Made by a program: the position numbers and the translations under genes. Under the pieces are notes generated by a model. The model did no database searches, was not told where the DNA came from, and saw only the letters and a program-made list of their open reading frames with translations. Shown here one piece after another: positions 2,048-32,044 of a stretch of 34,642 nt of DNA (the stretch's first letter is position 1; every line of letters begins with the position of its first letter). The DNA is from Anaerolineae bacterium (GTDB lineage Bacteria; Chloroflexota; Anaerolineae; Aggregatilineales; Phototrophicaceae), in assembly GCA_016788625.1 (NCBI GenBank), contig JAEUQX010000447.1, forward strand, positions 1 through 34,642, read 5' to 3'.

Positions 2048-5000
2048 ATGACAACGATCAGTTCGAATGTTGAAAACGACGCACCCAACCCATTGGAGCG
2101 CTGGCTGACCAGCCGTTTTCGCCTGAACTGGGAAACCTGGGTTTACCTGGTTATCCTGGTGCTGGCGATCTTCACGCGCTTCTACATCCTCGGCGACCGC
2201 ACGATGAGCCACGACGAGAGCTTACACACCAAGTTCTCGTGGGATCTGTATGCCAACGGCATCTTCGCGCATACGCCGCTGATGCATGGCCCGATCCTGT
2301 TTCACGTCACCGCGCTGAGCTATTTCCTGTTCGGTGATAATGATTTCACTGCCCGCATATACCCGGCGGTGCTGGGTGTGTTGATGGTCATGTTCCCACT
2401 GCTGTTCCGCCGCTGGTTGGGGCAGTGGGGTGCGATCCTCGCTTCGGTGATGTTCCTGATTTCACCGCTGATCCTCTACTACAACCGTTACATCCGCGAG
2501 GACACGCCGTCGATCTTCTATACGCTCGTGATGGTCTACTGTACTTTCATGTACCTGAACGGGCCGCGCTGGGCGCTGCGAAAGGCGCGCTGGTTGTATA
2601 TCTTCTCGGCGGCGCTGCTGGCGAGTCTGGCGACCAAAGAAGTCGCCTTTATGTATATCGCCATCTTCGGCAGCTTCCTCACGCTGTACTGGCTGGCGCG
2701 TATGGCGCAGCAGTTCCTGCGGATGCCCGGACGGACGTTGATGTATTTCATCTCGATGGCTGGGTTGATCGCGGGCGTCGCCGCGTTGGGCATGTATATC
2801 GTGCTGTCCATCGCACCGTTAGATACAGCTTTGCAGCTCGGCCAGGGGTCCCCGGAATTCGGCGCGTTGGTGCGCTGGACAGTGATGGTCGTCATCGCCG
2901 TCGTGCTGGTGGTCGTTGGCACGCTGCTGTGGGCGTTTCGGGGGAGTGCTGCGCGTGTGCCCTGGCTGGACGTGCTGCTGCTGCTGGCGCTCGTACTGGT
3001 TTTTGCGACCGTTTTTGTTATTGTCGAAGAGCGTTCGCACGTCCTCAACACCAATGCGGGCGAAACCTCTGCGCCCGCCGTACCGGGGCAGGAGGGCGCG
3101 ACCGACGCGGGTACCTTCTATATCACCTGGCCGTTTTACGCCTTCTGGGCTGGCTGTATCGCGCTGATCGCTTTGATCGCTTTCCTCAAGCGTTCCGGTT
3201 GGTGGCAGCAGCTCTACCGCTTCCCGGAATTCGACATTCTGCTGCTGATGGGCACGCTGACTCTGCCCTGGCTAACGCCGTTTATCATGAAGTCGATGAA
3301 CGCCAGCCCGATGTCCATGCCGCAAATCGCGCAGGCGGTGCAGGCGGCGCTTCCATTCCTGCAATTCGACACCAGTGTGTTCGGTATACAGGTGTTCCTC
3401 TCGTTCCTGCCCGTACTCCCGGCATTTCTCGTCGGTATCGCCGCGGGACTCGCCTGGAATTGGAAGCGATGGGCAATCGCAACAGCGGTGTTCTACGTCT
3501 TGTTTGTCTTTTTCTTCACCACTGTCTTTACCAACATCAACGGTCTTGGTACGGGTCTGATCGGCAGTCTGGGTTATTGGCTGGAACAGCAGGCGGTGCG
3601 GCGTGGTAACCAGCCGCAGTATTACTATCTGGTGCTGATCCTGCCGTTTTACGAATTCCTGCCTGTGATCGGCAGCTTCTTTGCGATGCTCACGGGCATG
3701 GGAATCTTCTGGCGTTTCCGCCGTTCGCGCCTGGAAACGCGCCTGCTGAGCCGCATTGAGGCAGAAGCCGAAGCAGGTGTCCTGGCCGAAGGCGAAGTGC
3801 TGGTGCAGGATGATGGCTTTGACGAGAAGCCTAAAGGTCTGCCCCCGGCCTTTTCTGCCGTTGAGCGCTTAAAACAGTTACCGATCATCCTGTTCATCTC
3901 GTGGTGGGCGGTCTTCAATATGATCGCCTACACTCTGGCGGGCGAGAAGATGCCCTGGCTCGGCACGCACATGACCACGCCGATGATTTTCCTGGCGGCC
4001 TGGTACTTTGCGCGTTTCTTCACCCGGCTGGACGTGCGCGCCTTCTGGAAAGAGAACTGGCTGTATCTCCTGCTTCTGCCGCTGCTGATCGTGGCTGGGG
4101 CACAGTTGGTCGCGCCGTTCCTCTTCGGCGGCACGGGCGGCCTGGAACAGCAGCAGCTTTCGCGCACCTTCCAGTGGCTCGCGGGGATGGTGATTGCGGG
4201 CGGCGTGCTGTACTTCATCTGGCGGCGTGTTGAACGCGGTGGGTGGCTGCAACTGCGCTTGCTGATCGGCATCACGACGTTCATCCTGCTCTCTTTCCTG
4301 ACGTTCCGTTCAGCCTGGATGGCTTCGTTCATTAACTACGATTTGGCGACCGAGTTCCTGGTTTACGCGCATGGTGGCCCGGCCAACAAGCAGGTCACGG
4401 AGCAGCTTGAGGAACTCAGCGAACGCATCACAGGTGGGATGGAGTTGCAGTTCGCCTACGACTTCAAGATCTCCTGGCCGGGTGCATGGTACTTCCGCGA
4501 TTTCAGCGGCGCAGCCTACTTAGGCGAGAATCCCAGTCCGCGCCAGCTTGATGATGCGCTCGTGGTGATCGTTGGTGATGAGAACCGTGCGTCCGTCGAG
4601 GCCATGCTGGAAGATCGCTACTTCAAGTTCGACTACCCGCGAATGTGGTGGCCGATGCAGGATTACTTCAACCTTACGCCGCAGCGCATCGACAGCACCT
4701 TTGATTTTTCGCCGGAGAACGTCCAGGCTGCGCAGATTCGCCAGGGTATGTGGGACATCTGGTGGTCGCGTGATTACACCACCTATGGCGAGGCGCTCGG
4801 ACGCGACTTTTCGCTGGTGCGCTGGCCCGTCTCCGACCGGATGCACGTCTTCATTCGCAAGGACATCGCTGCACAGGTCTGGGACTTGGGCATCGGTGAT
4901 GGTTCAGCGATCAGCCCCTTGACTGTCAATGAGGTGAATCTTTGCAACGAGAACTGGCAGCAGCTTCAGGCGCAGCAGTTGCTCACCATCAATGACGGTC

Positions 5001-5989
5001 TGCTGCCGCCGCTGAACCGCCCGCGCGATATGGCGTTCAGCCCGATCACGGGTCAGCTGTATGTGGCGGAGGAGTTCAACCACCGCATCTCAGTCTTCAA
5101 CGCTGATGGCAGTTTCGCCTTCGCCTTTGGTGAGCAGGGTACTTCCTCCGGCCAGTTTGAACGCCCGAACAGTGTTGCAGTTGGGCCAAGTGGCGATGTG
5201 TATGTCGCGGATACCTGGAACTACCGCGTGCAGGTCTTCACGCCGCAGGGCGAGTTCCTGCGCCAGTGGGGACAACCGGGTGAGTTCGGTCTGGGCGCGC
5301 AGCAGCAGCCTGTCGATGCCTTCTGGGGGCCGCGTGCGATTGCGGTCGATTCTGCCGAGCAGGTCTATGTGGCGGACACCGGCAACAAGCGCGTTCGTGT
5401 CTACAACGCCGCTGGTGAGTTCTTGCGCGACATCGGTATGGGCGGCAGCGGCATGGGGCAGTTGGATGAACCTGCTGGTCTGGCGATTGGGGCTGATGGA
5501 CGCCTGTACGTGGCAGATACCTGGAACCGGCGCGTGTCGGTCTTCACGCTGGATGGCAACCCGGCGATGAACTTCGTCGCTGCCGATGGGCAGACTGTCA
5601 ACAGCTTCCGGGTGCGCGGTTGGTTCGATGACCTGGGTAACCGCCCATATCTGGCAGTGGACTCGGTACGCAGCCTGGTATATGTCACCGACCCGGATGC
5701 AGGGCGTGTCCTGGTCTACGATACAACGGGCAACTGTGTCGGTTCGTTCGGCCAGCTATCTCGCGAGTTCCCCGATCTCACGCAGTTCTCCAGCGTGGGC
5801 GGCATCCGCGTTGATGCGGCGGGCAACGTCTATGTCTCCGATGCTGGCTCTGGTCGAATCCTACGTTTCGCGCCTTTTGTCCCCCTGACTGTGCAGCAGC
5901 CTGTGCTGCCGGTCATCGAGGCGACAGTGGAGGTGACACAGGAACTGCTGCTGCCAGAAGCTACGCCGGAGGCCACTGCTGCCGGATAA
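2048..5989 (+). CDS. TIGR03663/Agl23-type membrane glycosyltransferase-like protein fused to a C-terminal NHL beta-propeller
   Basis: A 1313-residue polytopic protein. The N-terminal half resembles GT-C/PMT-type (GT39-like) glycosyltransferases that use lipid-linked sugars. After the first membrane helix comes SHDESLHTKFSWDLYANG with an acidic D-E pair, then HGPILFHVTALSYFLFG and YNRYIREDTPSIFY, features I associate with the TIGR03663 (flippase-associated Agl23) family. A dozen or more hydrophobic segments extend to about residue 770. A soluble region (about 770-985) contains WYFRDFSGAAYLG and IWWSRDYTTYG. Residues about 990-1280 hold six NHL repeats (YVAEEFNHRISVF, YVADTWNYRVQVF, YVADTGNKRVRVY, YVADTWNRRVSVF, YVTDPDAGRVLVY, YVSDAGSGRILRF), enough for one closed propeller. 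The tail is Glu/Thr/Pro-rich. The start is supported by GAGG upstream. The substrate is unknown; a role in surface glycosylation is inferred. A double hairpin follows the stop. Confidence 0.85.
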   Translation: MTTISSNVENDAPNPLERWLTSRFRLNWETWVYLVILVLAIFTRFYILGDRTMSHDESLHTKFSWDLYANGIFAHTPLMHGPILFHVTALSYFLFGDNDFTARIYPAVLGVLMVMFPLLFRRWLGQWGAILASVMFLISPLILYYNRYIREDTPSIFYTLVMVYCTFMYLNGPRWALRKARWLYIFSAALLASLATKEVAFMYIAIFGSFLTLYWLARMAQQFLRMPGRTLMYFISMAGLIAGVAALGMYIVLSIAPLDTALQLGQGSPEFGALVRWTVMVVIAVVLVVVGTLLWAFRGSAARVPWLDVLLLLALVLVFATVFVIVEERSHVLNTNAGETSAPAVPGQEGATDAGTFYITWPFYAFWAGCIALIALIAFLKRSGWWQQLYRFPEFDILLLMGTLTLPWLTPFIMKSMNASPMSMPQIAQAVQAALPFLQFDTSVFGIQVFLSFLPVLPAFLVGIAAGLAWNWKRWAIATAVFYVLFVFFFTTVFTNINGLGTGLIGSLGYWLEQQAVRRGNQPQYYYLVLILPFYEFLPVIGSFFAMLTGMGIFWRFRRSRLETRLLSRIEAEAEAGVLAEGEVLVQDDGFDEKPKGLPPAFSAVERLKQLPIILFISWWAVFNMIAYTLAGEKMPWLGTHMTTPMIFLAAWYFARFFTRLDVRAFWKENWLYLLLLPLLIVAGAQLVAPFLFGGTGGLEQQQLSRTFQWLAGMVIAGGVLYFIWRRVERGGWLQLRLLIGITTFILLSFLTFRSAWMASFINYDLATEFLVYAHGGPANKQVTEQLEELSERITGGMELQFAYDFKISWPGAWYFRDFSGAAYLGENPSPRQLDDALVVIVGDENRASVEAMLEDRYFKFDYPRMWWPMQDYFNLTPQRIDSTFDFSPENVQAAQIRQGMWDIWWSRDYTTYGEALGRDFSLVRWPVSDRMHVFIRKDIAAQVWDLGIGDGSAISPLTVNEVNLCNENWQQLQAQQLLTINDGLLPPLNRPRDMAFSPITGQLYVAEEFNHRISVFNADGSFAFAFGEQGTSSGQFERPNSVAVGPSGDVYVADTWNYRVQVFTPQGEFLRQWGQPGEFGLGAQQQPVDAFWGPRAIAVDSAEQVYVADTGNKRVRVYNAAGEFLRDIGMGGSGMGQLDEPAGLAIGADGRLYVADTWNRRVSVFTLDGNPAMNFVAADGQTVNSFRVRGWFDDLGNRPYLAVDSVRSLVYVTDPDAGRVLVYDTTGNCVGSFGQLSREFPDLTQFSSVGGIRVDAAGNVYVSDAGSGRILRFAPFVPLTVQQPVLPVIEATVEVTQELLLPEATPEATAAG

Positions 5990-6186: not shown

Positions 6187-8094
6187 ATGAAAAGTGAGTT
6201 TGAGGTCGCCTTTAACGAAATCACCGAACTGCGGTCGCTGCCGCGCGATGTGGTGCTGGAAGCACTGCAGACGGCGCTGATTTCCGCTTATCGGCGTGAC
6301 GCGGGCGTGGGCACGGCGCAGCGGGTTGAGGTCAAGATAGATCCCAATACCGGGCGGGCGCGCATCTTTGTCGAAAAAGAAGTCGTTGACAGTGTGATGA
6401 ACCAGAATACGGAAGTCACGCTGGAGAAAGCGCGTTATTACGAGCCGGAGGCCAACTTTGGCGATATGGTGATGGTGCAGCTTGAGGGCACCACCAAGAA
6501 GTTTGGGCGCATCGCCGCTCAGACCGCCAAACAGGTCATCCTCCAGAAAATCCGCGAGGCCGAACGCAACTCTCTTTACGATGAGTATGCCGAGCGTGAA
6601 GGCGATCTGGTCACCGGGACTGTGCAGAGCGTCAACTCCACCATGATCACCGTCAGCCTGGGGCGCGCCGAGGCGGTCATGCCGCGCAACCAGCAGATCC
6701 CCGGCGAGCGCTATAAGCCGCACGATAAGGTTCGAGCTTTTCTCGTCGAGGTCAAGCGCAGCAATCGCGGTCCACAGATCGTGGTCAGCCGCGCGCATCG
6801 CAACATGCTGCGCCGCCTGCTGGAATACGAAGTTCCTGAAATCTTCAACGGCCAGGTCGAGATCAAGAACATTGCCCGCGAGGCTGGCTACCGTTCGAAG
6901 GTTGCTGTCGCCGCGCTGCAAGAGGGCATTGATCCGGTCGGCGCGTGTGTTGGTATGCGCGGTATCCGTATCCAGAACATCGTCAAGGAACTCCACGACG
7001 AGAAGATTGATGTTATCGAGTGGAATCCCAACCAGGAGCAGTTCATCGCTAAAGCGCTTAGTCCAGCGCGTGTGAGTGGTGTCTACCTGGAAGACGATCC
7101 CGACTCGGGTCGTACTGCTGTCGTGATTGTGCCGGATGACCAGTTGTCTCTGGCGATTGGTCGCGAGGGGCAGAACGCTCGTCTCGCCGCCAAACTGACT
7201 GGCTGGCGCATTGATATCAAGAGCGTCACCGAGGCCGTGCAGGATGCGCTCAACAATCTGACACAACCTTCACTTTCTGATCTGCCCATCAAGCAACCCG
7301 ATTTGATCTCCGAAGTCGTTCGTATTGTGGAGAAGAAGGCGGGCGGCAAGACCGTGCAGCCGGAAGAATTCACAACGCTGGCACGCTTCGCTGATATTGT
7401 CGAACGCCGTATGCTGGCGACACGCGACAGCGCTCGTCAGGAGCGTGTGGCCGAGATTCAGGCCGTCAAATCCACGCTGCCGCAGCAGGCCTTCAAGATG
7501 TCGGTCACGACTCTCGACCTGCCCGACGAGATCATCGAAGCGCTGCAACCGCTGGAAAATGTCGGCGAGATTATGTGGCGCTTCCTGCTCGATGAGGATC
7601 GTCTTCGTTCGATGCTCAAGGGTCTTCCCGAAGATTCGCTCGAACGGCTGCAAACGGCGCTGGACAAGGTGGTTATCCCCACTGAAGCTGAAATGGCTGC
7701 TGCAGAGGAATTGCAGGCCGTCGAGCCAGAAGTAGTCGCGGAAGCGCCTGCTGCTGTCGTTCCCGCCGTTGAGATTGAGGAAGAAGAGGCCATCCCCGCC
7801 GCATTCGGTGATGAAGCCGAAGTCGAGGTTGCCCCAATCGAGCGCAAAGTGGTGCGTCAGCCTGCTTTTGTGCAGCAACCTGTCGAGGTGGTTGAATCCG
7901 AAGACGATGATGAGGAGGATGAGGACGACGACGCTGAACTGGTTGCGGGCGGCAAACCAGCCAAGAAAGAAAAGAAGAAGAAAAAGAAGGAGCGTCAGCA
8001 GCGCCGCCAACTGATTTTCGACGAGGAAATCGGCCAGGTTATTGCCAAGCGCCGCCGTAAGGGTGGACGTGGTAGTGAGTGGGATGACGAATAG
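6187..8094 (+). CDS. nusA: Transcription termination/antitermination factor NusA with extended C-terminus
   Basis: NusA binds RNA polymerase and nascent RNA and modulates pausing, termination and antitermination. The 635 residues show the NusA N-terminal domain (1-130), an S1 domain starting at [20 protein letters not shown] (about 138-205), and KH1 and KH2 (about 205-350) with the signatures [18 protein letters not shown] and [20 protein letters not shown]. Beyond these lies a ~285-residue extension. At residues about 439-492 it has a helical segment ([20 protein letters not shown], then [20 protein letters not shown]) whose pattern resembles the helix-hairpin-helix of NusA AR repeats or the RNA polymerase alpha CTD. 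An acidic linker, a 10-residue Asp/Glu cluster, a lysine block and a basic end follow. It is the first gene of the operon; rimP, often upstream, is absent. The purine-rich GAGGGGGAG at 6163-6171 is rather far from the ATG. Confidence 0.96.
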
Positions 8095-8383
8095 CACGGC
8101 TATGACGGCCAATCAGCAGCCTCGCGCCAGGCATGTGCCGATGCGAACGTGTGTGGTCTGTCGGGATAAAACCGGCAAACGCATACTCACTCGCATGGTG
8201 CGGACGGAGAACGGACTGATGATCGACCCGACGGGCAAGATGAATGGACGTGGCGCGTATTTGTGTGAGCGCCTGGCTTGCTGGGAGCGCGCCATTAGCA
8301 GTGATGTGCTGGGCAAAGCGCTGCGCATGTCTCTGAACGCGGAAGACCGTGAACGCCTGCAACAGGCAAAGCCCAAAGCATGA
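8084..8383 (+). CDS. ylxR: YlxR/RnpM family RNA-binding protein
   Basis: A 99-residue small basic protein of the YlxR family (DUF448), found next to nusA and infB in many bacteria. In Bacillus it has been linked to RNase P modulation and gene regulation. The hallmark motifs are RTCVVCRDKTGKRILTRMV (residues about 21-39) and GRGAYLCERLACWERAI (about 55-71), with the conserved CxxC and GRGAY patch. I chose the ATG at 8084, which overlaps the nusA stop by 11 bases after a GTGAGTGGG. An ATG at 8102 is also possible, and an upstream ATG at 8042 would add 14 unconserved residues inside nusA. Confidence 0.9.
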   Translation: MTNSTAMTANQQPRARHVPMRTCVVCRDKTGKRILTRMVRTENGLMIDPTGKMNGRGAYLCERLACWERAISSDVLGKALRMSLNAEDRERLQQAKPKA

Positions 8384-8510
8384 TGGGCAGCAATTATGAA
8401 CACGACGCTGTGTTCGATACGCATTCGATAAACCATGCGGTAGGTCAAACGGGGAAACCGTAACGCTTGTTTCCTGGCCTGCCGCTCCATACAGCATGGA
8501 GGCAAAGGGT

Positions 8511-10316
8511 ATGGCACAGGAAAAACAGATTATTCTGTTACCGGACTATCTCACAGTCCGTGAGTTGGCGGAATTGGTATCCGCCAGCCCGATTGAAGTG
8601 ATGAAACGTCTGATCGCCAACGGCATCATGGCGTCCATCAATCAGCAGATCGACTTCGATACAGCCGCCATCGTCCTCGAAGAGATGGGGTTCGAGCCGC
8701 AGTCCGCCACCGTTGTTCACGAACAAGAAGAGAAGAAGAAGGCTGCCGACGCGCAGACCTGGCGCCGGAAATACGCCGAAGAACGCCCGGAAAGTTTGCA
8801 GCGCCGCCCACCAATTGTCACCATCCTCGGTCACGTTGATCATGGCAAGACCACGCTGCTCGACACCATTCGTAAGGCGTCGGTGGCGGCTGGCGAAGCC
8901 GGTGGTATCACCCAGCACATTGGCGCTTACCGCGTCAACCGCGAAGGTCGCTGGCTGACCTTTCTGGATACCCCCGGTCACGAAGCCTTTACTGCCATGC
9001 GCGCGCGTGGGGCACAGGGCGCGGACATTGCTGTGCTGGTGGTCGCGGCGGACGACAGCGTGATGCCGACCACAAAAGAAGCGCTCAGCCATGCCCGCGC
9101 AGCCAATGTACCTGTTGTCGTGGCGATCACCAAGATCGACAAGCGCAACGCCAATGTCGACACTGTCAAGAAGGATCTTTCCGATATTGGCCTGACCCCC
9201 GATGAGTGGGGCGGCGACACGTTGGTCGTGCCTGTCTCGGCACAGCAGGGGCAGGGTATCGATGACCTGTTAGAGGCCATCCTGCTCATGGCAGATGATA
9301 GCGACATCGTTGCCAATCCCAGCAGTGATGCTTCCGGAATCGTGCTCGAATCTGAGGTCAGTCCTTCGCGAGGCACACTGACGACGCTGGTTGTGCTGAA
9401 TGGCACGCTCAAGCGCGGCGATGTCATCATCGCGGGTGAAGCGCATGGCCGTATCAAGGCGATGTTCGACGAGGCAGGTAAGCCGATCGATCAAGCGGGG
9501 CCATCTGTTCCGGTGCGCGTCCTGGGTTTGAGTGAACCGCCGCAGCCTGGCGACAGCTTTGAGCGCGTCAAGAACGACAAGATTGCCCGGCAGCTCAGCG
9601 ACGAGCGCCGACAGGAGTCTGTGGCGCGCCGCGCTCAGCCCGAACGTGCAGCCTTCACGCTGGAAGACGTGTTTGCGCAGTTTAACGCGGGTAAGACCAA
9701 AGAGCTGGCGCTCATCATCAAGGCGGACGTACAGGGGTCGCTGCAACCCGTCGTCGACTCTGTCAAGCAGTTAGGTGACAAAGCTAAGGCGGAACACGGG
9801 ATCGGGATGCGCATTCTGCTCGCAGATATCGGCAACATCACCGAGAATGACGTGATGCTCGCCAGTGCATCTGGTGCCATCGTCATCGGCTTCACGGTGG
9901 ATGTTGATCCCTCCGCGCGTCGCACGGCTGACTCTAAGGGCGTGGACATCCGCCAGTACACCATCATATATAAACTCCTGGAAGACATCGAACTGGCGTT
10001 GAATGGTCTGCTCGAACCCGTCTACCGCGACAAGACCATCGCGACCGTTGAGGTGCGCGCACTCTTCAAGCTCAAGTCCGGCATGGTCGCTGGTTCCTAC
10101 GTCAAAGAGGGCGAAGTGCGCCGTAACGCTCGTGTCCGCGTCAAACGTGGTGGCAAGGTGTTGGCGGAAAACCTCAGCGTAGCGGCACTCAAGCGCGAGA
10201 AAGATGATGTGCGCGAGGTGCGTTCCGGATTTGAATGCGGCATTTCGCTGAACGGTTTCGATGAATTCGTTGTCGGCGACCTGTTGGAATTCTACATCTC
10301 TGAGCGCGTCAACTGA
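8511..10316 (+). CDS. infB: Translation initiation factor IF-2
   Basis: IF-2 is the GTPase that brings initiator fMet-tRNA to the 30S subunit and promotes subunit joining. The 601-residue form is short: an IF2_N module (about 16-60, VRELAELVSASPIEVMKRL), a brief charged linker, the G domain, then domains II, III and the fMet-tRNA-binding C-terminal domain. G1 is GHVDHGKT at residues 107-114 and G3 is DTPGHEAF at 153-160. G4 reads TKID (207-210) instead of the usual NKID, and G5 reads SAQQG instead of SAKxG. Start 8511 is chosen because GGAGG (8498-8502) sits eight bases upstream; the ATG at 8496 overlaps that Shine-Dalgarno sequence. The 127-base gap after ylxR holds no convincing gene. Confidence 0.97.
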   Translation: MAQEKQIILLPDYLTVRELAELVSASPIEVMKRLIANGIMASINQQIDFDTAAIVLEEMGFEPQSATVVHEQEEKKKAADAQTWRRKYAEERPESLQRRPPIVTILGHVDHGKTTLLDTIRKASVAAGEAGGITQHIGAYRVNREGRWLTFLDTPGHEAFTAMRARGAQGADIAVLVVAADDSVMPTTKEALSHARAANVPVVVAITKIDKRNANVDTVKKDLSDIGLTPDEWGGDTLVVPVSAQQGQGIDDLLEAILLMADDSDIVANPSSDASGIVLESEVSPSRGTLTTLVVLNGTLKRGDVIIAGEAHGRIKAMFDEAGKPIDQAGPSVPVRVLGLSEPPQPGDSFERVKNDKIARQLSDERRQESVARRAQPERAAFTLEDVFAQFNAGKTKELALIIKADVQGSLQPVVDSVKQLGDKAKAEHGIGMRILLADIGNITENDVMLASASGAIVIGFTVDVDPSARRTADSKGVDIRQYTIIYKLLEDIELALNGLLEPVYRDKTIATVEVRALFKLKSGMVAGSYVKEGEVRRNARVRVKRGGKVLAENLSVAALKREKDDVREVRSGFECGISLNGFDEFVVGDLLEFYISERVN

Positions 10317-10412
10317 CCGAAAATCCTGGGCCGCTGACTCATGCGCACGGACGCAATATGGCTGTAGAGCCGTTCACGCAAAGTCAGCGGCATAAGTCCG
10401 CATTTCGGTCAG
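10313..10412 (+). repeat. ~100-nt nested inverted repeat between infB and rbfA
   Basis: The outer arms CTGACCGAAA (10313-10322) and TTTCGGTCAG (10403-10412) are perfectly complementary. An inner pair, GCCGCTGACT (10330-10339) and AGTCAGCGGC (10382-10391), is also a perfect 10-bp match. Deeper short pairings are TGCG 10342-10345/CGCA 10377-10380 and ACGG 10347-10350/CCGT 10370-10373. The outer left arm includes the infB stop codon, and the outer right arm ends about nine bases before the rbfA AAAGGAG. There is no T-tract, so it is not a standard terminator. It could be an RNase III processing site, an attenuator, a small mobile inverted-repeat element or a structured RNA. Confidence 0.75.
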
Positions 10413-10433
10413 CCTATTGTAAAGGAGTCTTCG

Positions 10434-10829
10434 ATGTCGAAGATCAAACAGGATCGGATGAATGACCGCATCCGCGAACTGCTGAGCGAATTGATGCTGC
10501 GTGAAGTTTCCGATCCGCGCTTGCAGCATATCACCATCACTGAGGTCAAGCTCGATCCGGAACTGATGTATGCCAATATCTACATCAACGCTCTCGGTGA
10601 CGAAAATCGTCAGCAGCAGGTTATGGCAGGTCTCGAACGTGCTAAAGGATTCCTGCGCCGTGAACTGGCGAAGCGTGTGCGGCTTCGGAATGCGCCCGAC
10701 TTGCATTTTCATTGGGACGAAACGCTGGAACGGGGCGAACGTATGAACGCCTTGCTCAACCAGTTGGACATTCCTGGCAAGCCCGCGAAGCCTGCCAAAC
10801 CCGTTCTGGACGGTACGAATGACGAGTAA
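10434..10829 (+). CDS. rbfA: Ribosome-binding factor A
   Basis: RbfA is a single-KH-like domain protein that binds the 30S subunit during late 16S rRNA maturation and is important in cold adaptation. The 131 residues show the family pattern: the N-terminal helix KIKQDRMNDRIRELLSELML, EVSDPRLQHITITEVKLDPE, and the AAxxY-like strand LMYANIYINALGDE, followed by GFLRRELAKRVRLRNAPDL and HFHWDETLERGERMNALL. The length is normal. A strong AAAGGAG lies seven bases before the ATG. It sits between infB and nrnA as in many bacteria, and its last 11 bases overlap the next gene. Confidence 0.96.
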   Translation: MSKIKQDRMNDRIRELLSELMLREVSDPRLQHITITEVKLDPELMYANIYINALGDENRQQQVMAGLERAKGFLRRELAKRVRLRNAPDLHFHWDETLERGERMNALLNQLDIPGKPAKPAKPVLDGTNDE

Positions 10830-11790
10830 GCTTGCGTGGCAGCAGGCGACGCAGACCGTGATGGCAGCAGGCCGCGTCCTGATTGTGACGCATGTCAAAC
10901 CAGATGGTGATGCGATTGGTTCGATGCTGGGACTGGCTGCCGCGCTGCGTGAGCGCGGTATAGAGGTGGACACCGCTGTGGATGGCGGTGTTCCCCGCTA
11001 TCTGACGTACCTGCCCGGCGCGGGTGAGGTACGCTCAGCGTTGGACACAGGTAACTGGGATGTGATGATCTCCGTCGATGCCAGCGACGAACCCCGCAGC
11101 GGTCTGGTCGGCGTGTATGGCCGCGAACACAGTGCCGTAGTGATCAATCTCGATCATCATCCGACCAATACGATGTTCGGAGATGTTCAGCTCGTTGCGG
11201 GCGAGGCTGTTTCGTCAACCGAGGTCATCTACGATTGGCTCGTGCATATGCAGTGTGCCATCTCAGCACCTGTCGCTACAGCGCTGCTCACCGGACTGCT
11301 GACCGATACCATCGGTTTTCGCACGTCCAATGTTGTGCCGCGCACCCTGGAGATCGCCAGCGTGCTGATGCAGTGCGGCGCGCCGATGTATGATCTTATC
11401 CAGCGTACTTTAGTCAGCCGGCCCTACAGTGATCTCGACCTCTGGCGCTACGCCTTGCCCACCATGCGCTTGAATTCAGGGATTGTGTCGGTCGTGGTTT
11501 CACAGGCTAATCTGCGCGAAGTTGGGCTGGATGAATCGACCGATGGTGGACTGGTCAGCGCACTCATCGAAGTGGATGAAGCGCAGATTGCCATCGTCTT
11601 CAAAGAAGAACCTGACAATACAGTACGTCTGAGCATCCGCAGTAAGCCTGGCGTTGATGTGGGTACCGTAGCGTTTTCTCTTGGTGGCGGCGGCCACGCC
11701 CAGGCGGCAGGCGCGACGGTTCCAGGGACGCTCGAAGAGGTACAGGCGCGTGTGCTGCCGCTGCTGCGCGCTGCTTTGACGCAGGGGTAG
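10819..11790 (+). CDS. nrnA: DHH/DHHA1 phosphoesterase, NrnA-type (nanoRNase / pAp phosphatase)
   Basis: A 323-residue member of the DHH family. NrnA degrades 2-5-mer RNAs and dephosphorylates 3'-phosphoadenosine 5'-phosphate. The N-terminal DHH domain has HVKPDGDAIGS (His25, Asp29, Asp31 as metal ligands) and the DHH triad at residues 112-114 (INLDHHPTN). The C-terminal DHHA1 domain ends with FSLGGGGHAQAAGATV, the substrate-binding GGGH loop. The ATG lies inside the rbfA 3' end (11-base overlap), and the stop is four bases before truB, indicating tight coupling. The size matches NrnA rather than the larger RecJ, which is separately encoded at 21409. Exact substrates are inferred from family and context. 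Confidence 0.93.
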   Translation: MTSKLAWQQATQTVMAAGRVLIVTHVKPDGDAIGSMLGLAAALRERGIEVDTAVDGGVPRYLTYLPGAGEVRSALDTGNWDVMISVDASDEPRSGLVGVYGREHSAVVINLDHHPTNTMFGDVQLVAGEAVSSTEVIYDWLVHMQCAISAPVATALLTGLLTDTIGFRTSNVVPRTLEIASVLMQCGAPMYDLIQRTLVSRPYSDLDLWRYALPTMRLNSGIVSVVVSQANLREVGLDESTDGGLVSALIEVDEAQIAIVFKEEPDNTVRLSIRSKPGVDVGTVAFSLGGGGHAQAAGATVPGTLEEVQARVLPLLRAALTQG

Positions 11791-11794
11791 TACG

Positions 11795-12676
11795 TTGGCT
11801 GACCCCTGCGGTTTTCTGAATATCAACAAGCCGGCTGGGCTGACCAGTCACGACGTTGTGGCGCGTCTGCGGCGCAGTCTGAGGCTGAAGAAAGTCGGGC
11901 ACGCGGGCACGCTCGATCCGTTGGCGACAGGCGTGCTGGTCATTTGTGTTGGCGCGGCCACGCGTCTGAGCGAATATGTTATGGCCTCGCGCAAGCGTTA
12001 CCAGGCTGTGGCACGGTTAGGCGTCACGACGGATACCTATGATGCCGACGGTCAGGTCGTGCAGGTGCGCGATGCTTCTGGCGTTACCCGCCCTGATGTT
12101 GAGGCAGCGTTGAACGCTTTTCGCGGTGATATACTCCAGCATCCACCGGCTTACAGCGCGATCAAGCAGGGCGGGCGTAAGCTCTACGAACTGGCGCGTG
12201 CCGGAGAGGTGGTCGAAGCTGCTGCGCGCCCGGTTACGATTCACGCGCTCGACCTGGTCGACTGGTCAGCGCCGCAGTTCACGCTTGATGTGGCGTGCAG
12301 CGCCGGGACTTACATTCGCAGCCTTGCCTATGATCTGGGTGAAGCGTTGGGCGTTGGCGCGCATCTGACGGCTTTGACGCGCACGGCCAGCGGTATTTTC
12401 GATGGTAGCGCCAGTGTCGATCTGGGTGCGCTGCTCCAGGATGCGCAGTGGCAGCGCCACCTCATCAGCCCTCAACGCGCCCTGGCCGATTATCCAGCGA
12501 TCACTCTGACAGCGCACGCCATCACTGAGCTGCATTACGGTCGCCCTGTGCCTGACCTGACAGCAGACGAGGGCGCTGCCGCCTTCGCTTACGCGCCGGA
12601 TGGTACTCTGGTGGCGGTGGTTCATGGGGTGGGTGGTCTGTGGCGGCCACATAAGGTATTCTTGAGTACAGAGTGA
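11795..12676 (+). CDS. truB: tRNA pseudouridine(55) synthase TruB
   Basis: TruB converts U55 to pseudouridine in the T loop of tRNAs. The 293 residues carry GFLNINKPAGLTSHDVVARL at the N-terminus and the catalytic motif GHAGTLDPLATGVLVICVG with the nucleophilic aspartate at residue 41. Further family blocks are KRYQAVARLGVTTDTYDADG, PPAYSAIKQGGRKLYELARA and CSAGTYIRSLAYDLG. A short C-terminal domain completes a normal length. The start is TTG at 11795, four bases after the nrnA stop. No in-frame ATG precedes the conserved N-terminus, so the TTG is the best choice. It is fifth or sixth in the nusA operon. Confidence 0.96.
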   Translation: MADPCGFLNINKPAGLTSHDVVARLRRSLRLKKVGHAGTLDPLATGVLVICVGAATRLSEYVMASRKRYQAVARLGVTTDTYDADGQVVQVRDASGVTRPDVEAALNAFRGDILQHPPAYSAIKQGGRKLYELARAGEVVEAAARPVTIHALDLVDWSAPQFTLDVACSAGTYIRSLAYDLGEALGVGAHLTALTRTASGIFDGSASVDLGALLQDAQWQRHLISPQRALADYPAITLTAHAITELHYGRPVPDLTADEGAAAFAYAPDGTLVAVVHGVGGLWRPHKVFLSTE

Positions 12677-12737
12677 CGGCCAGCGGGATTGCTGCGCCGT
12701 TTTCTGTGAGCCGAAGTCACCGACGAGAAGTCAATTC

Positions 12738-13670
12738 ATGCGACACGTCTACAGCCTTTCCGAAGTCAACCTGAACCAACCGTCTATCGTGACCATCGGC
12801 GTGTTTGATGGCGTCCATCGTGGACATCAACACCTCGTCCAGCGTCTTGTGGCCGAGGCGCGTGCCACCGGGCGTCTCGCTGTTGTGCTGACCTTTTTTC
12901 CGCATCCAGATATTGTGCTGCGAAATCTGCAGGGTCGCTACTACCTGACGTCACCGGAACAGCGCGCCGACCTGCTGATTGAGGCGGGTGTCGATTACGT
13001 CGTGACGCATCCTTTTGATGAGCAGGTGCGGCAGATGCGTGCGGCGGCCTTTGTAGACGAGATGCGTGCGCATTTGCAGCTCTCGTCGCTATGGGTTGGC
13101 GCTGATTTCGCGTTGGGCTATAAGCGCGAGGGCGATGTGCCGTTCCTTCGCGCGCAGGGGGCGGAGAAGCAGTTCAGCGTACACGAGGTTGATCTGCTCA
13201 CGGCGGAAGGCACGACCATCAGCAGTACAGCGATTCGCCAGGCGCTCGAAGTGGGGCAGGTTGAGCAGGCGCGCGAATGGCTGGGGCGTGGTTATGCCTT
13301 GTCCGGCGAGGTTGTACGTGGCGAGGCGCGCGGGCGCAAGATCGGCTACCCAACCGCCAACATCGCCGTCTGGGAACATCAGGTGATTCCCGCCAACGGC
13401 ATCTACGCGGGCTGGGCGCGCCTGGGCAGCGAACGTTTCATGGCTGCTACCAACGTCGGCGTGCGTCCCACATTTGATGGCAGCAATATCACCGTCGAAC
13501 CCTATCTGCTGGACTTCGACCGCGATATTTACGGCCAGACCCTGGAAATTACTTTTGAGAAACATCTGCGACCGGAGGCGAAGTTCTCCAGTCTGCCGGA
13601 GTTGATCGAGCAGATCGGGCGCGATGTGGACGATGCGCGCGCGTTTTTAGCAAGTCTGCGACAGCCCTGA
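12738..13670 (+). CDS. ribF: Bifunctional riboflavin kinase / FAD synthetase
   Basis: RibF phosphorylates riboflavin to FMN and adenylylates FMN to FAD. The N-terminal FMN adenylyltransferase domain (about 1-165) has VTIGVFDGVHRGHQHLVQRL with the nucleotidyltransferase HxGH-type site and the SSTAIRQAL block that binds ATP. The C-terminal riboflavin kinase domain (about 185-305) has GEARGRKIGYPTANIAVWEH, GIYAGWARLGSERFMAATNV and the ExxLLDFDRDIYGQ pattern. The length of 310 aa is standard. GAGAAG about eight bases upstream supports the ATG. It follows truB after 61 bases and ends the operon. Its TGA abuts the stop of the opposite-strand era with no bases between. Confidence 0.96.
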   Translation: MRHVYSLSEVNLNQPSIVTIGVFDGVHRGHQHLVQRLVAEARATGRLAVVLTFFPHPDIVLRNLQGRYYLTSPEQRADLLIEAGVDYVVTHPFDEQVRQMRAAAFVDEMRAHLQLSSLWVGADFALGYKREGDVPFLRAQGAEKQFSVHEVDLLTAEGTTISSTAIRQALEVGQVEQAREWLGRGYALSGEVVRGEARGRKIGYPTANIAVWEHQVIPANGIYAGWARLGSERFMAATNVGVRPTFDGSNITVEPYLLDFDRDIYGQTLEITFEKHLRPEAKFSSLPELIEQIGRDVDDARAFLASLRQP

Positions 13671-26938: not shown

Positions 26939-27084
26939 GAAATAGTCTATCCTATCCTGATCACGGTCATGCCTGTGACTGTAGCGCATCGTCGTGAATG
27001 TGGCGTGAGAATTCAACGGCGGATGCACACTGCGCCAATCTGATCTACACTATTCGAAAGTGCGTTTATTGCAGGAGGATAATT

Positions 27085-28449
27085 ATGTTGCAGGTGCTGC
27101 GACTGCTGTCCCTGGTTGTGCTGTGGGCGCTGCTGGTTGGCGCTGCTCAGGCGCAGGATGTCCCCTTCGACGCGCTCATCATGCAGATTGGAGACGAACT
27201 TGTGCGCTGGGCGCCCGACGGCGGCGAAACGTTCATTGCCACACTGCCGCCGGGTTATTACTCGCTCAACGTTTCATCCTCGCGTAAGTACGCCATCTAC
27301 GAGACGCTAAGCCAGCGAGTCCAAGCGGAGTGTGGTAATGGCGGCTGTGCGGGTCCGTCCAAGTTTCCCACTGAGTTCTACCTGATTGACCTGGACGCGC
27401 CCAGCATTGCGCCATTGGCTGGCGCGGTGGCCGGTGGTGCGGAAAATGGGCGCTCGTCGCCCGTCTGGTCGCCGGATGGGGCACGCATCGCCTGGACGGA
27501 AGGCTATGATGCTGCTGACTTGATGATCTATGATGTGACCAGTGGCACTACAACCACGCTCGCCAGCGGCGTCTCGACCTATATGGGTACGGGTGTTTCG
27601 GCAGTGGTGGCAATCGAAGCATGGGTGGATGCAGGCATCGTCTTCCGTCTATCACGGGAGACCGCCAGCGGTATTGTCGGTGATGGTTACGCGGTGTACG
27701 ATCCCACGTCGGGTGCGCTGCTGCGGACGATACCCGCTCTGTTGAAGATCGCACTTGCGGAAGGTATTGTTCGCTTTCAGGGCGGTGATTACGTCGTCAC
27801 GGATATGCAGTTGATCAACCTTGCTACGGGCGAAGCAGTCACAACGCCGGGCGGGACGCTGTATGCCGTATCGCGCACTGCGCCGGAAATGTCGCTACGG
27901 GTTGCGCCGGGTAAGCTGAGTGACCAGGGACTATGGTCTTACGACGTATTCACCGCTGATGGCGTGCTGACGTATACCATCATTGATCAGTTTTATTACG
28001 TCTCGCCATCTGGAACTGCGTTCCTTGAAGTCGCGAATGACCTGTCGCGCTATACCCTGCGCGTGCCGGGACGTGACCCGCAGGTGCTCGATCTGCCGCG
28101 GCTGCCAGAGCGCCTGTTCTGGGAAAACCTGACCTATCTGTTCGAATTAGATGACATCGCGTTCATCGCCGGGGGACGCTGTGAGGGAAGCGTACTGCCG
28201 TTCCGACTGATGGTTGCCTTATCCGGTCTTGTGCTGGGCGATACACCCAACAACATCCGCAGCCAGCCAAACACCGCCGCCGAGCGTATCGGCCAGATTC
28301 CGGCGGGTGAGCGCTTCACCGTTCTGGATGGACCTGTCTGTGCCGAAACCGTTGCCTGGTGGTACGTCAGCCATAACGGCATAGAGGGCTGGACGGCAGA
28401 AGGCGCGGGCGGTGAGTACTGGCTGTCGCCGGAGTCTGGCGCAGGATGA
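27085..28449 (+). CDS. Secreted beta-propeller protein with C-terminal SH3 domain
   Basis: A 454-residue secreted protein. AGGAGG at 27073-27078, six bases before ATG 27085, decides the start; the frame is open upstream but without a Shine-Dalgarno sequence. The signal peptide (MLQVLRLLSLVVLWALLVGA) ends AQA-QD. The body holds WD40/TolB-like blades, for instance SSPVWSPDGARIAWTEGYDA and repeated strand patterns. The final ~70 residues are a bacterial SH3 type domain (NIRSQPNTAAERIGQIPAGE, then WWYVSHNGIEGWTAE) typical of cell-envelope anchoring or protein binding. Function is unknown; it precedes an ABC importer and is divergent from the methyltransferase. Confidence 0.78.
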   Translation: MLQVLRLLSLVVLWALLVGAAQAQDVPFDALIMQIGDELVRWAPDGGETFIATLPPGYYSLNVSSSRKYAIYETLSQRVQAECGNGGCAGPSKFPTEFYLIDLDAPSIAPLAGAVAGGAENGRSSPVWSPDGARIAWTEGYDAADLMIYDVTSGTTTTLASGVSTYMGTGVSAVVAIEAWVDAGIVFRLSRETASGIVGDGYAVYDPTSGALLRTIPALLKIALAEGIVRFQGGDYVVTDMQLINLATGEAVTTPGGTLYAVSRTAPEMSLRVAPGKLSDQGLWSYDVFTADGVLTYTIIDQFYYVSPSGTAFLEVANDLSRYTLRVPGRDPQVLDLPRLPERLFWENLTYLFELDDIAFIAGGRCEGSVLPFRLMVALSGLVLGDTPNNIRSQPNTAAERIGQIPAGERFTVLDGPVCAETVAWWYVSHNGIEGWTAEGAGGEYWLSPESGAG

Positions 28450-28527
28450 GTCTCCGTGAATCGTTTGACAGGTCGAGTGTTTCGGCTTAAAGTAGGCGCT
28501 CAAAATAAGCCAAAGGGGGCTTCTTAC

Positions 28528-30096
28528 ATGAAACGACATTTTGCCATTCTCCTTGCCGTTCTCATCGCCCTGCTGTCGGTCGGCGGTGCGCTGGCACAGG
28601 ACGGCGCGTTGATCATCGCCACTGAGCTGGACGACGTGATCACGCTCGATCCGGGCCGTGCCTTCGAAACCACCAACCTGACCATCAACCATGCGACTTA
28701 TGACACCCTCGTCGAGATCCGCGCGGATGACCTCAACACGCTGGTGCCCAGCCTGGCTGAAAGCTGGACGGTCTCCGATGATGGTCTGGTGTACACCTTC
28801 ACATTGCGTTCGGGCGTCACCTTCGCTTCCGGTAATCCGCTCACGGCGGAAGATGTGCGCTTCTCGTGGACGCGCCTCAAGAACCTCAAGGGTAACCCGT
28901 CATTCTACGCCGATACGGTTGCGAGCGTCGAAGCTGTTGACGATCTGACTGTTCGTGTCACGCTCAGCGCGCCAACCCCTGCATTCCTGACGATTGTCAC
29001 CGCCCCGGCGATGAGCGTACTCGACAGCGTGCTGGCGAAGGCCAATGGCGCGACGGATGCTGCTGATGCCGACACGACTGATACCGCTAACGACTGGCTC
29101 AGCCAGAACTCGGCGGGTTCGGGACCCTTCGTTCTGACGGGTTGGACACCGCTGGGCGAAATCACACTGGTGCGCAATGACAATTACTGGCGCGGTGCGG
29201 CGGCGCTGCCTGCTGTGACTCTGCGCCACAGTGATGACGCCACCACCAAACTGCAACTGCTCGAACGTGGCGACATTGATGTGTATGAGAACGTCGATAA
29301 AGACCTGGCCGCGCAAATTCAGGGTAATGCTGATCTGCAACTGTCCATCGGTCAGACGCTCAACATTACCTATCTGGCGATTTCTGGCGATGCCAAATTC
29401 AACCTGCCGTTGAGCGATGCTCGTGTGCGCCAGGCCATTGCGCAGGCCGTCGATTATGATGGCATCATCAACGGGCTGCTGTCCGGCTATGCCGACCGTC
29501 CGGCTGCGATGCTGCCGTTGGGCGTGGCGGGTTCCGACCCGGCGAAACGCTATGAACGCAATGTTGATGCGGCTAAGGCGCTGCTGGCCGAAGCGGGTTA
29601 TGCCGATGGCTTCGAGATGCCTATCTACATCGGGCAGGGCGCGCCAGGTGGTATCCCCAGCGAGACGCTGGCCGCCAAGCTCCAGGCTGACCTGGCCGAG
29701 ATCGGTGTCACGGTCACGATTGACCAGCGCCCGACCTCGGACTTCCTGACCGCGTATCGTGCGCAGGAACTGTCATTCCTCTTCGCCACCTGGACGCCTG
29801 ACTACCTTGACCCGACGATGTGGTCGGATTACTTCTCGTATCCGGATTCCGGCCCAGCCGCGCGTATCCTGCTGAACTCGCAGGCCATTGCGGATGCCGC
29901 CGCCCAGGCCGCCGCTGAAGCAGACCCGGCCAAGCGCCTGGAAATCTACACCGCGTATCAGGACGCGCACGTGGCCGAGGCGGTATTCGTGCCGCTGTTC
30001 CAGCCGCAGCAGCTTTATGCACTGCGCAACAATGTGCAGGGGTTCGCGTTCCATCCGGTCTACTTCATGGATTTCTACATGATGAGCAAGTCCTAG
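28528..30096 (+). CDS. ABC transporter substrate-binding protein, peptide/nickel family (SBP_bac_5)
   Basis: A 522-residue family 5 extracellular solute-binding protein, the capture component of Opp/Dpp-type importers for oligopeptides, dipeptides, nickel or sugars. Start ATG 28528 is preceded by AAAGGGGG. The signal peptide (MKRHFAILLAVLIALLSVGG) ends ALA-QD. No lipobox cysteine is present and I see no Cys in the protein, so membrane anchoring by lipidation is not predicted. The body has the family pattern TLDPGRAFETTNLTINHATY, LVPSLAESWTVSDDGLVYTF and GNPLTAEDVRFSWTRLKNLK. The ligand cannot be predicted. It is followed by a hairpin and two permease genes. Confidence 0.94.
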   Translation: MKRHFAILLAVLIALLSVGGALAQDGALIIATELDDVITLDPGRAFETTNLTINHATYDTLVEIRADDLNTLVPSLAESWTVSDDGLVYTFTLRSGVTFASGNPLTAEDVRFSWTRLKNLKGNPSFYADTVASVEAVDDLTVRVTLSAPTPAFLTIVTAPAMSVLDSVLAKANGATDAADADTTDTANDWLSQNSAGSGPFVLTGWTPLGEITLVRNDNYWRGAAALPAVTLRHSDDATTKLQLLERGDIDVYENVDKDLAAQIQGNADLQLSIGQTLNITYLAISGDAKFNLPLSDARVRQAIAQAVDYDGIINGLLSGYADRPAAMLPLGVAGSDPAKRYERNVDAAKALLAEAGYADGFEMPIYIGQGAPGGIPSETLAAKLQADLAEIGVTVTIDQRPTSDFLTAYRAQELSFLFATWTPDYLDPTMWSDYFSYPDSGPAARILLNSQAIADAAAQAAAEADPAKRLEIYTAYQDAHVAEAVFVPLFQPQQLYALRNNVQGFAFHPVYFMDFYMMSKS

Positions 30097-30108
30097 AGGA
30101 ATAGCTTC

Positions 30109-30135
30109 AGGGGCGGGCGTACAGCGCTCGTCCCT
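30109..30135 (+). promoter_or_regulatory. Hairpin between the binding-protein and permease genes
   Basis: AGGGGCGGGCG (30109-30119) pairs with CGCTCGTCCCT (30125-30135), 11 bp with two G-T pairs and a five-base TACAG loop. It lies 13 bases after the binding-protein stop. Such hairpins commonly protect or partially terminate the upstream message so that binding protein exceeds permease. Confidence 0.6.
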
Positions 30136-30150
30136 GCTGCATAAACAGCC

Positions 30151-31164
30151 ATGCTGCGTTACATCGCCCGCCGCCTGATTCTGACCATCCCGATGCTGCT
30201 CGGCATCTCGCTGGTGTTGTTTTTGATTTACAACCTGGTGCAGATCGATCCGCTGGTGATGATTGTTGGCGAGCGGGCGATGGATAACCCGGAAGTCGTG
30301 GCTGCCGCCGTCAAGAAGTGGGGCTTAGACCGCCCGATCTGGGAACAATATCTGACCTACGTGGTCAACATGGCGCGCGGCGACTTTGGCGCTTCATTCC
30401 TGACGCGCCGTCCGGTCATGGATGACCTGCGTTTGTTCCTGCCTGCAACGGTTGAACTTGCGCTCAGTTCCCTGGCTTTCGCGACTGTTCTGGGAATCCC
30501 ATTGGGCATCCTCGCTGGCGTTAAGTACCGTAGCCTGTTCGACAGGGGAGTCTGGTTCATCTCGCTGCTGAATGCCTCGCTGCCGCCGTTCTGGACAGGT
30601 CTGATCTTTCTGACGATCTTCTATTTCTACCTGGGCATCATGCCCGGCCCCGGACGACTTGACCCGCGCATGTCCGACCCTGAACGCGTGACTGGTCTGT
30701 ATACCGTCGATTCGCTGTTGGCGGGCGATGTGCAGGCGTTCGGCAGCACGCTGCATCATCTCGTCCTGCCGACGCTCATTCTGGGCGGCTTCACGCTGGC
30801 GCTGGTCGTGCGGGTGACGCGCGCCGCGATCATCGAGGAGATGCGTCGTGATTACATCCGTACCGCACGGGGCAAGGGGCTGAGCGAACGGCGCGTGATT
30901 GTGCGTCACGCGCTGCGCAATGTGATGATGCCGCTGGTCACCATCCTGGGGCTGGCATTTGCCGGGCTGCTGAGCGGCGCGGTGATGACCGAAACGGTCT
31001 TCGACTGGCCGGGATTGGGGCAGTATCTGGTCAAAGCGGCTGTCAACTTTGATTATCCGGCTATTCAGGGTGGCACGCTGCTGATCGCCATTGTTTACGT
31101 GCTGGTCAACCTCGTCGTCGATGTGATGTATGGGCTGCTCGATCCCAGGGTGCGTTATGACTGA
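30151..31164 (+). CDS. ABC transporter permease, DppB/OppB type
   Basis: A 337-residue membrane permease of the binding-protein-dependent transport family. The N-terminus MLRYIARRLILTIPMLLGIS and PTVELALSSL-like TM layout (six helices) are standard. The EAA-like loop that meets the ATPase is YIRTARGKGLSERRVIVRHA followed by LRNVMMPLVTILGL. The C-terminal LLDPRVRYD-type end is typical of DppB. It overlaps the next permease gene by eight bases, so the pair is coupled. It forms a heterodimer pore with the DppC-type partner. Confidence 0.94.
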   Translation: MLRYIARRLILTIPMLLGISLVLFLIYNLVQIDPLVMIVGERAMDNPEVVAAAVKKWGLDRPIWEQYLTYVVNMARGDFGASFLTRRPVMDDLRLFLPATVELALSSLAFATVLGIPLGILAGVKYRSLFDRGVWFISLLNASLPPFWTGLIFLTIFYFYLGIMPGPGRLDPRMSDPERVTGLYTVDSLLAGDVQAFGSTLHHLVLPTLILGGFTLALVVRVTRAAIIEEMRRDYIRTARGKGLSERRVIVRHALRNVMMPLVTILGLAFAGLLSGAVMTETVFDWPGLGQYLVKAAVNFDYPAIQGGTLLIAIVYVLVNLVVDVMYGLLDPRVRYD

Positions 31165-32044
31165 TGCGGTGCGCCTGAAACCGGAACACGCCGTTCAGCC
31201 GCTCAAAGCCCGCCGTGAGCAGGGCGGCCTGCGCGAACATGTGCGAAAGTATCCGGCGTTTTGGGTTGGTCTGGCGATACTGCTGTTCTTTGGATTGCTG
31301 ATCATCTTCGCCGAGCAGATTGCCGCTGCCGACCCGCTGGCACAGGATTTGTCAGTGCGTCTCAAGCCGCCGTCTGCCGAACATCCCTTCGGCACCGATG
31401 AACTGGGACGTGACATCTACAGCCGGACGGTGCACGGCGCGCGCGTGTCGCTGCCCGCGTCGTTTTTTGTCGTCGTCGTGTCGGTGGTGGTCGGGTCGCT
31501 GTTGGGCGCCTTGGCGGGCTTTCTGGGCGGCGTGGTAGAGGAAGTCGTCATGCGCGTCGCCGATGTGACACTGGCGTTTCCTTCCATCGTCCTCGCGCTG
31601 GCGATTTCGGCATTTCTCGGCCCCAGCCTGACCAATGCCATCCTGGCGGCCTGCGTCGTTTTGTGGCCGGAGTATGCTCGCCTGATGCGCTCCCAGGTGC
31701 TGGTCATTCGCTCGCTGGACTACATTCTGGCGGCGCGTTCGCTTGGTCTGCCGGAGTGGTACATCCTCGTGCGCCATGTCCTGCCGAACGCCTGGACGCC
31801 GCTGATCATTAAGGCATCGCTCGATGTGGGCGGGATCATCCTGTTGGTTTCGGCGCTGAGCTTTCTGGGATTGGGCGTGACCCCGCCGACCGCTGAATGG
31901 GGCGCGATGATCGCCCTGGGACGTACCAAGTTCTACCAGTGGTGGCTGGCAACCTTCCCCGGCTTAGCCATCCTGATCGTAATCTTCGCCTGTAACCTGC
32001 TCAGCGAAGGGCTGCGCGACTGGCTCGACCCCAACTACCGCTGA
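31157..32044 (+). CDS. ABC transporter permease, DppC/OppC type
   Basis: A 295-residue permease partner. The N-terminal cytoplasmic arm (residues 1-35) is followed by a helix and the OppC_N pattern HPFGTDELGRDIYSRTVHGA, then helices and the EAA-loop YILAARSLGLPEWYILVRHV. ATG 31157 is chosen because it overlaps the dppB-type stop; the upstream ATG at 31130 would lie inside that gene. No ATPase gene follows. Two bases separate its TGA from that of convergent mutS. The importer therefore relies on ATPase subunits encoded elsewhere. Confidence 0.94.
   Translation: MTDAVRLKPEHAVQPLKARREQGGLREHVRKYPAFWVGLAILLFFGLLIIFAEQIAAADPLAQDLSVRLKPPSAEHPFGTDELGRDIYSRTVHGARVSLPASFFVVVVSVVVGSLLGALAGFLGGVVEEVVMRVADVTLAFPSIVLALAISAFLGPSLTNAILAACVVLWPEYARLMRSQVLVIRSLDYILAARSLGLPEWYILVRHVLPNAWTPLIIKASLDVGGIILLVSALSFLGLGVTPPTAEWGAMIALGRTKFYQWWLATFPGLAILIVIFACNLLSEGLRDWLDPNYR

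Follow-up and report, generated by a model that had tools for sequence, protein, structure and literature searches.

Near the start of contig JAEUQX010000447.1 from an Anaerolineae bacterium (Chloroflexota; Anaerolineae; Aggregatilineales), a membrane protein resembling GT-C glycosyltransferases continues, in the same reading frame, into an NHL propeller, and the genes for an ECF sigma factor and an anti-sigma factor stand directly ahead of it. Do the propeller fusion and the sigma-dependent control of the locus belong together, as in the stress-controlled surface-glycosylation module envisaged by the original prediction, or do they have separate histories, and what would such a locus contribute to the cell surface? 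We addressed these questions in the whole stretch of 34,642 nucleotides (hereafter, the window) and in related loci of Chloroflexota.

A GT-C membrane protein with a predicted six-bladed propeller

The protein and its parts are encoded as follows:

2048-5989, + strand: GT-C membrane protein fused to an NHL propeller, 1313 aa (ORF, profiles, AlphaFold2 models)
2129-4333, + strand: GT-C transmembrane part, residues 28-762 (AlphaFold2 helices, structural matches)
2210-2227, + strand: invariant H55-D56-E57-x2-H60 of the first outer loop, with an acidic pair predicted to be catalytic (alignments of 25 and 53 homologues)
2486-2497, + strand: invariant R147/R150 (R-x2-R), second GT-C signature (alignments of 25 and 53 homologues)
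4340-4888, + strand: soluble alpha/beta domain, residues 765-947 (AlphaFold2 model, alignments, comparison with ArnT)
5021-5875, + strand: six NHL repeats, residues 992-1276, predicted six-bladed propeller (NHL profile, AlphaFold2, Foldseek)

The gene is a single uninterrupted frame of 3942 nt with an ATG start. Its product matches TIGR03663 with 210.4 bits, against a curated cut-off of 126.25, is matched in profile searches by PMT/PMT_2 as well, and contains NHL sequences (3.7e-33) in five stretches by Pfam; a profile built from the repeats of the window and trained on relatives finds six, at residues 992-1032, 1040-1079, 1095-1135, 1142-1176, 1199-1240 and 1252-1276. The combination of a GT-C-like membrane half with six NHL repeats in one intact frame is thus borne out, and sequence analysis confirms the domain order of a GT-C membrane enzyme, an ArnT-like soluble domain and then the six repeats. 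The originally proposed limits of the propeller (990-1280) hold, the end of the membrane part moves from about residue 770 to about 762, and the soluble domain at about 765-947 had been overlooked. Architecture and gene order are kept across dozens of genomes, far above chance expectation.

The AlphaFold2 model of residues 1-985, computed from a 53-sequence alignment (pLDDT 87.5, pTM 0.89), finds ArnT as its top match among solved structures (Z 27.3, 439 residues aligned, rmsd 3.6, about 15% identity), followed by Pmt4 (Z 26.4) and the oligosaccharyltransferases OST/AglB (Z about 25), so that the predicted structure has the GT-C fold. The acidic motif expected in the first outer loop of GT-C enzymes is present too, with H55, D56, E57 and H60 unchanged in all 53 aligned homologues. 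The soluble domain is conserved, also in members that lack the propeller, and the alignment with ArnT runs across it. The protein thus shares with ArnT and the protein O-mannosyltransferases the fold, soluble domain included, and the acidic loop motif, but is distant from them in sequence and has the propeller in addition.

For residues 755-1300, the AlphaFold2 model reaches a pLDDT of 88, mostly above 90 in the propeller portion, and the propeller lies nearest to the NHL domains of Thin (Foldseek TMt 0.85), TRIM71, Brat and Mycobacterium tuberculosis PknD. The expectation that the six repeats make one closed propeller agrees with the six profile matches and the closed fold of the model. Outer accessory domains rich in beta structure are familiar from other GT-C enzymes, namely, the MIR domain of PMT and the carbohydrate-binding modules of Emb and AftD. 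The window protein resembles these in combining a GT-C core with an outer domain thought to handle the substrate, but differs in having a six-bladed NHL propeller in this place; a literature search on NHL combined with GT-C, and on NHL in Chloroflexi, turned up no report among the papers covered.

The propeller fusion is widespread in Chloroflexota

Six blades are present in nearly every long TIGR03663 homologue in two sets of loci, 60 from relatives and the phylum, with long frames preferred, and 80 named loci that are the best 80 of 579 matches, both sets being biased toward similar or long proteins. An evenly drawn sample of the phylum contains an above-cut-off TIGR03663 member in 32 of 49 genomes; 24 of these 32 encode a member that reaches 900 aa, length serving as a proxy for the propeller, and 8 have only shorter ones. 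The shorter homologues whose sequences were inspected lack NHL. A search for NHL as a separate gene beside short TIGR03663 genes, in 20 neighborhoods, recovered NHL only in two genes that were already fused. Because six blades occur in nearly all long homologues and long members in three quarters of the sampled TIGR03663-bearing genomes, the fusion is, as judged from sequence comparison, ancient and widespread in Chloroflexota, where propeller-less members exist as well. That most TIGR03663 proteins might already carry NHL repeats, which the original prediction had named as counting against a special module, is therefore largely the case within this phylum.

Several loci depart from the usual form of the gene. 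Homologues of 1730-1770 aa occur at L100, L101, L105 and L175, with about 290 residues beyond the propeller at L105; at L093 (181-7797), the gene is duplicated in tandem, and the sigma pair lies directly upstream only of the copy that comes first in gene order. In three assemblies (L178, L191 and L164), frame breaks split the gene, probably through sequencing error.

An ECF sigma/anti-sigma pair within a GT-C tandem

Three genes precede the fusion gene:

1-813, + strand: partner GT-C protein, a divergent TIGR03663 paralogue, C-terminal 270 aa, cut by the contig start (orthologues, gene order)
872-1468, + strand: ECF sigma factor, regions 2 and 4 (TIGR02937 5.6e-33; Sigma70_r2, r4_2)
1465-1974, + strand: membrane anti-sigma factor with one hydrophobic stretch, gene overlapping the sigma gene by 4 nt (zf-HC2 1.2e-6)

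The sigma factor has regions 2 and 4 only, as ECF factors do, and the anti-sigma factor carries the zinc motif H30-x3-C34-x2-C37 (HLEDCETC, residues 30-37) of class I ZAS proteins; the predicted ECF factor with a zinc-finger anti-sigma directly ahead of the fusion gene is accordingly well founded in the TIGR02937, Sigma70 and zf-HC2 matches. The pair resembles other ECF factors with class I ZAS anti-sigma factors in its sigma regions, in the overlapping gene for a membrane anti-sigma and in the promoter-like element ahead of it, and differs in an unusual -10 box and in its linkage to TIGR03662/TIGR03663 genes. The related membrane protein that had been noticed ahead of the pair is the partner, identified as a divergent TIGR03663 paralogue through its full-length orthologues, which measure about 620 aa, match TIGR03663 with 57-83 bits, below the cut-off, and lack the HDE motif, although an acidic residue, E63, is retained.

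Throughout the phylum, a propeller-less GT-C protein is often encoded directly 5' of the fused one, and the order partner, sigma, anti-sigma, fusion gene is conserved, the genes overlapping or being separated by short gaps in the majority of genomes. In a protein tree, the ECF pair lies between the two GT-C genes in 63 of the 69 members of one well-supported Anaerolineae clade that includes Aggregatilineales, and in clade members without the pair (L089, L091, L159/L167 and L163), the GT-C genes adjoin. Presence or absence of the pair changes 8 times over this tree, compared with 34 in shuffles; the tree is a FastTree reconstruction with some long branches, and the sigma-bearing L183 and L194 fall outside the clade and may reflect separate gains. 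On the simplest reading, the pair was inserted essentially once into an ancestral tandem of GT-C and GT-C-NHL genes and was then lost several times. Sister lineages possess the fusion without an adjoining sigma pair, so that the idea of the fusion as the novelty of this locus, or as tied to the ECF pair, is not supported: by these comparisons, the fusion predates the pair and is independent of ECF control.

A promoter-like element ahead of both operons of the cluster

One further feature lies at the junction of the partner and sigma genes:

811-838, + strand: promoter-like element TGAGGAA-N14-GTGTATA (14/14 match; boxes conserved and spacer unconserved in relatives)

In the upstream regions of most of 20 genomes, the gene order is PF03706 protein, GT4, PMT-like GT-C, motif, TIGR03662 (about 1800 aa), TIGR03662 (about 870 aa) and partner GT-C, after which the cluster continues with motif, sigma, anti-sigma and the fusion gene. 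On the best reading of the sequences, the locus holds five GT-C-type proteins, namely, two TIGR03662/DUF2298, two TIGR03663 and one PMT-like, together with a GT4 enzyme and an LPG_synthase_TM-type membrane protein. The TIGR03662 (Chlor_Arch_YYY)/DUF2298 proteins share the cluster and the predicted regulon with the GT-C-NHL protein, but form a separate family without NHL; in the literature searched, DUF2298 turns up in two papers, one of which lists it close to PMT2 genes in a Chloroflexi genome. In the genome of the window, the left half of the cluster lies on contig C526, where each of the two TIGR03662 genes has the motif ahead of it, and gene order, the basis of this placement, suggests that C526 adjoins the window contig. 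On the other side of the locus, the window continues with ordinary housekeeping genes in an order found in many relatives (nusA, infB, nrnA-like, truB and ribF, 6187-13670); at 26998-32044, genes that have no relation to the locus encode an SH3_3 protein and an ABC transporter of the peptide type (SBP_bac_5, two permeases); comparison of the window with viral contigs gave no match.

The element emerged from a dyad, AGGA-N16-TGTA, found upstream of the sigma gene at 39 of 54 loci, compared with a shuffle maximum of 5; aligned, these sites read TGAGGAA-N14-GTGTATA. The genome contains no perfect match other than the window copy, which leaves 33 nt to the sigma start and whose -35 box shares nucleotides with the partner stop codon. 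As the TGA often is this stop codon, the first three positions were omitted from the scoring profile. The core AGGAA-N14-GTGTATA has 26 matches in 41 related genomes, compared with 3 for a reversed control; 14 lie ahead of sigma genes and 5 ahead of TIGR03662, and in four genomes with both genes on one contig, the motif-bearing TIGR03662 gene is about 10 kb upstream of sigma. The remaining 7 matches in these 41 genomes, considered as further regulon members against the 3 in the control, share no common gene, and we propose no additional members. Applied to 17 held-out genomes, a profile trained only on sigma-upstream sites reaches a score of at least 12.9 within 200 nt upstream of TIGR03662 in 15, and a sixteenth has its site at about 216 nt; the 95th percentile for random windows of the same loci, true sites included, is 6.6. 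The motif is found at 52 of 64 loci with sigma and 1 of 44 without, counts that are not independent given that the loci are related; the other 12 sigma-bearing loci show no clear motif, and matches scoring at least 12 in sigma-less loci are scattered, about one per 33 kb. Directly ahead of the fusion gene, the best dyads occur at 7 of 54 loci, compared with a shuffle maximum of 5-6, and we therefore claim no motif there.

Additional copies of the form TGAGGAA-N15-GTGTAT[AC] lie within the 3' terminal part of the first TIGR03662 gene, ahead of the second, in three genomes including that of the window (L258, 1678-1705, on C526; L265 near 8259; L270 near 6691). In the closest relative (G400, L239), the motif stands 43 nt ahead of a gene for a DsbA-like protein, which may be due to chance.

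A proposed ECF-controlled surface-glycosylation locus and its alternatives

The reading that we favor, with a probability of roughly 0.65, is that of an ECF-autoregulated surface-glycosylation locus in which the GT-C-NHL protein is an outward-facing GT-C glycosyltransferase. This protein, which comes second in an ancestral tandem of two GT-C proteins within a surface-glycosylation cluster, would take a sugar from a polyprenyl-phosphate carrier on the outer side of the membrane, and the propeller, outside the membrane, would most likely position or hold the acceptor, which could be a glycan of the surface, a component of the S-layer or wall, or an enzyme acting as partner; transfer, sidedness and acceptor handling are all suggested by fold, motif and analogy. 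The sigma/ZAS anti-sigma pair would have been inserted between the tandem members in the clade that includes Aggregatilineales. A postulated envelope signal would release sigma from the anti-sigma factor, and the free sigma would transcribe two operons from TGAGGAA-N14-GTGTATA promoters, the one to which it belongs (sigma, anti-sigma, GT-C-NHL) and the one upstream (TIGR03662, TIGR03662, partner GT-C); the conservation of the element ahead of the operon of sigma itself, and its co-occurrence with sigma, would fit such autoregulation. On balance, it also seems probable that this is a dedicated ECF regulon for a GT-C-type locus (two TIGR03662/DUF2298, two TIGR03663, the propeller fusion among them) with its own promoter code and a single origin in Anaerolineae, by insertion of the pair into the GT-C tandem. 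Of the module originally proposed, then, the idea of an ECF-controlled locus is strengthened, given the pair in 63 of 69 clade members and the motif at both operons and at 52 of 64 against 1 of 44 loci, and the tie between propeller and ECF control is not supported; stress as the trigger and binding of glycan or wall polymer by the propeller are conjectural.

The only characterized TIGR03663 protein that we found, Agl23 of Haloarcula hispanica, is reported to be a flippase for lipid-linked sugars rather than a transferase: when purified, it translocates M5GN2-PP-Dol in liposomes, and it suppresses a yeast rft1 deletion (PMC11182771). For this reason, we retain as a rival, unlikely but deserving serious attention, a role of the GT-C-NHL protein in flipping polyprenyl-phosphate-linked sugars, with other proteins of the locus supplying the transferases. 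The window protein and Agl23 belong above the cut-off to the same NCBIfam family, which occurs in archaea and Chloroflexota, but the 435-position family model lacks the NHL part, and Agl23 is described as acting on dolichol-linked sugars. The GT-C fold and the invariant HDE motif of the outer loop are what would be expected of a transferase active site, and the flipping reported for Agl23 is compatible with transfer as well. A literature search on TIGR03663 found nothing among the papers covered, and no ECF control of Agl23/TIGR03663 is described in the literature searched.

The remaining alternatives concern regulation. That GTGTATA is not a classical ECF -10 box counts against the favored reading. 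The element might be a housekeeping promoter or some other conserved DNA or RNA element, given that its TGTATA resembles an AT-rich housekeeping -10 and that a stop codon makes up some of the -35 box; its near absence from homologous junctions without sigma, and a geometry akin to that of known ECF promoters such as that of SigW (TGAAAC-N16-CGTA), make this improbable. A signaling role, in which the propeller contacts the tail of the anti-sigma factor and reports the state of the envelope, would fit the shared operon and the predicted outside location of the propeller, but many lineages have the fusion without an adjoining sigma pair, so that the fusion did not arise for this role, and we regard it as quite improbable. 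Least credible is that the pair is a mere passenger controlling something else: sigma pairs are common, and GT-C genes lack the pair in other lineages, but in many genomes the two operons of the cluster have this motif ahead of them, and it is missing where sigma is missing and has few other sites genome-wide.

Implications

The papers searched describe no ECF link to TIGR03662/TIGR03663 genes, and the regulatory link to this locus, as deduced from genome comparison, appears to be newly recognized. Little is understood about the envelope of Chloroflexota, and TIGR03662 and TIGR03663 proteins are nearly uncharacterized in bacteria. Proteins with the widespread propeller fusion form a GT-C subfamily, and their accessory domain is suited to expression and ligand testing. 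The promoter element would provide a testable handle on the timing of surface-sugar remodeling, for which the sigma-less relatives are a natural control.
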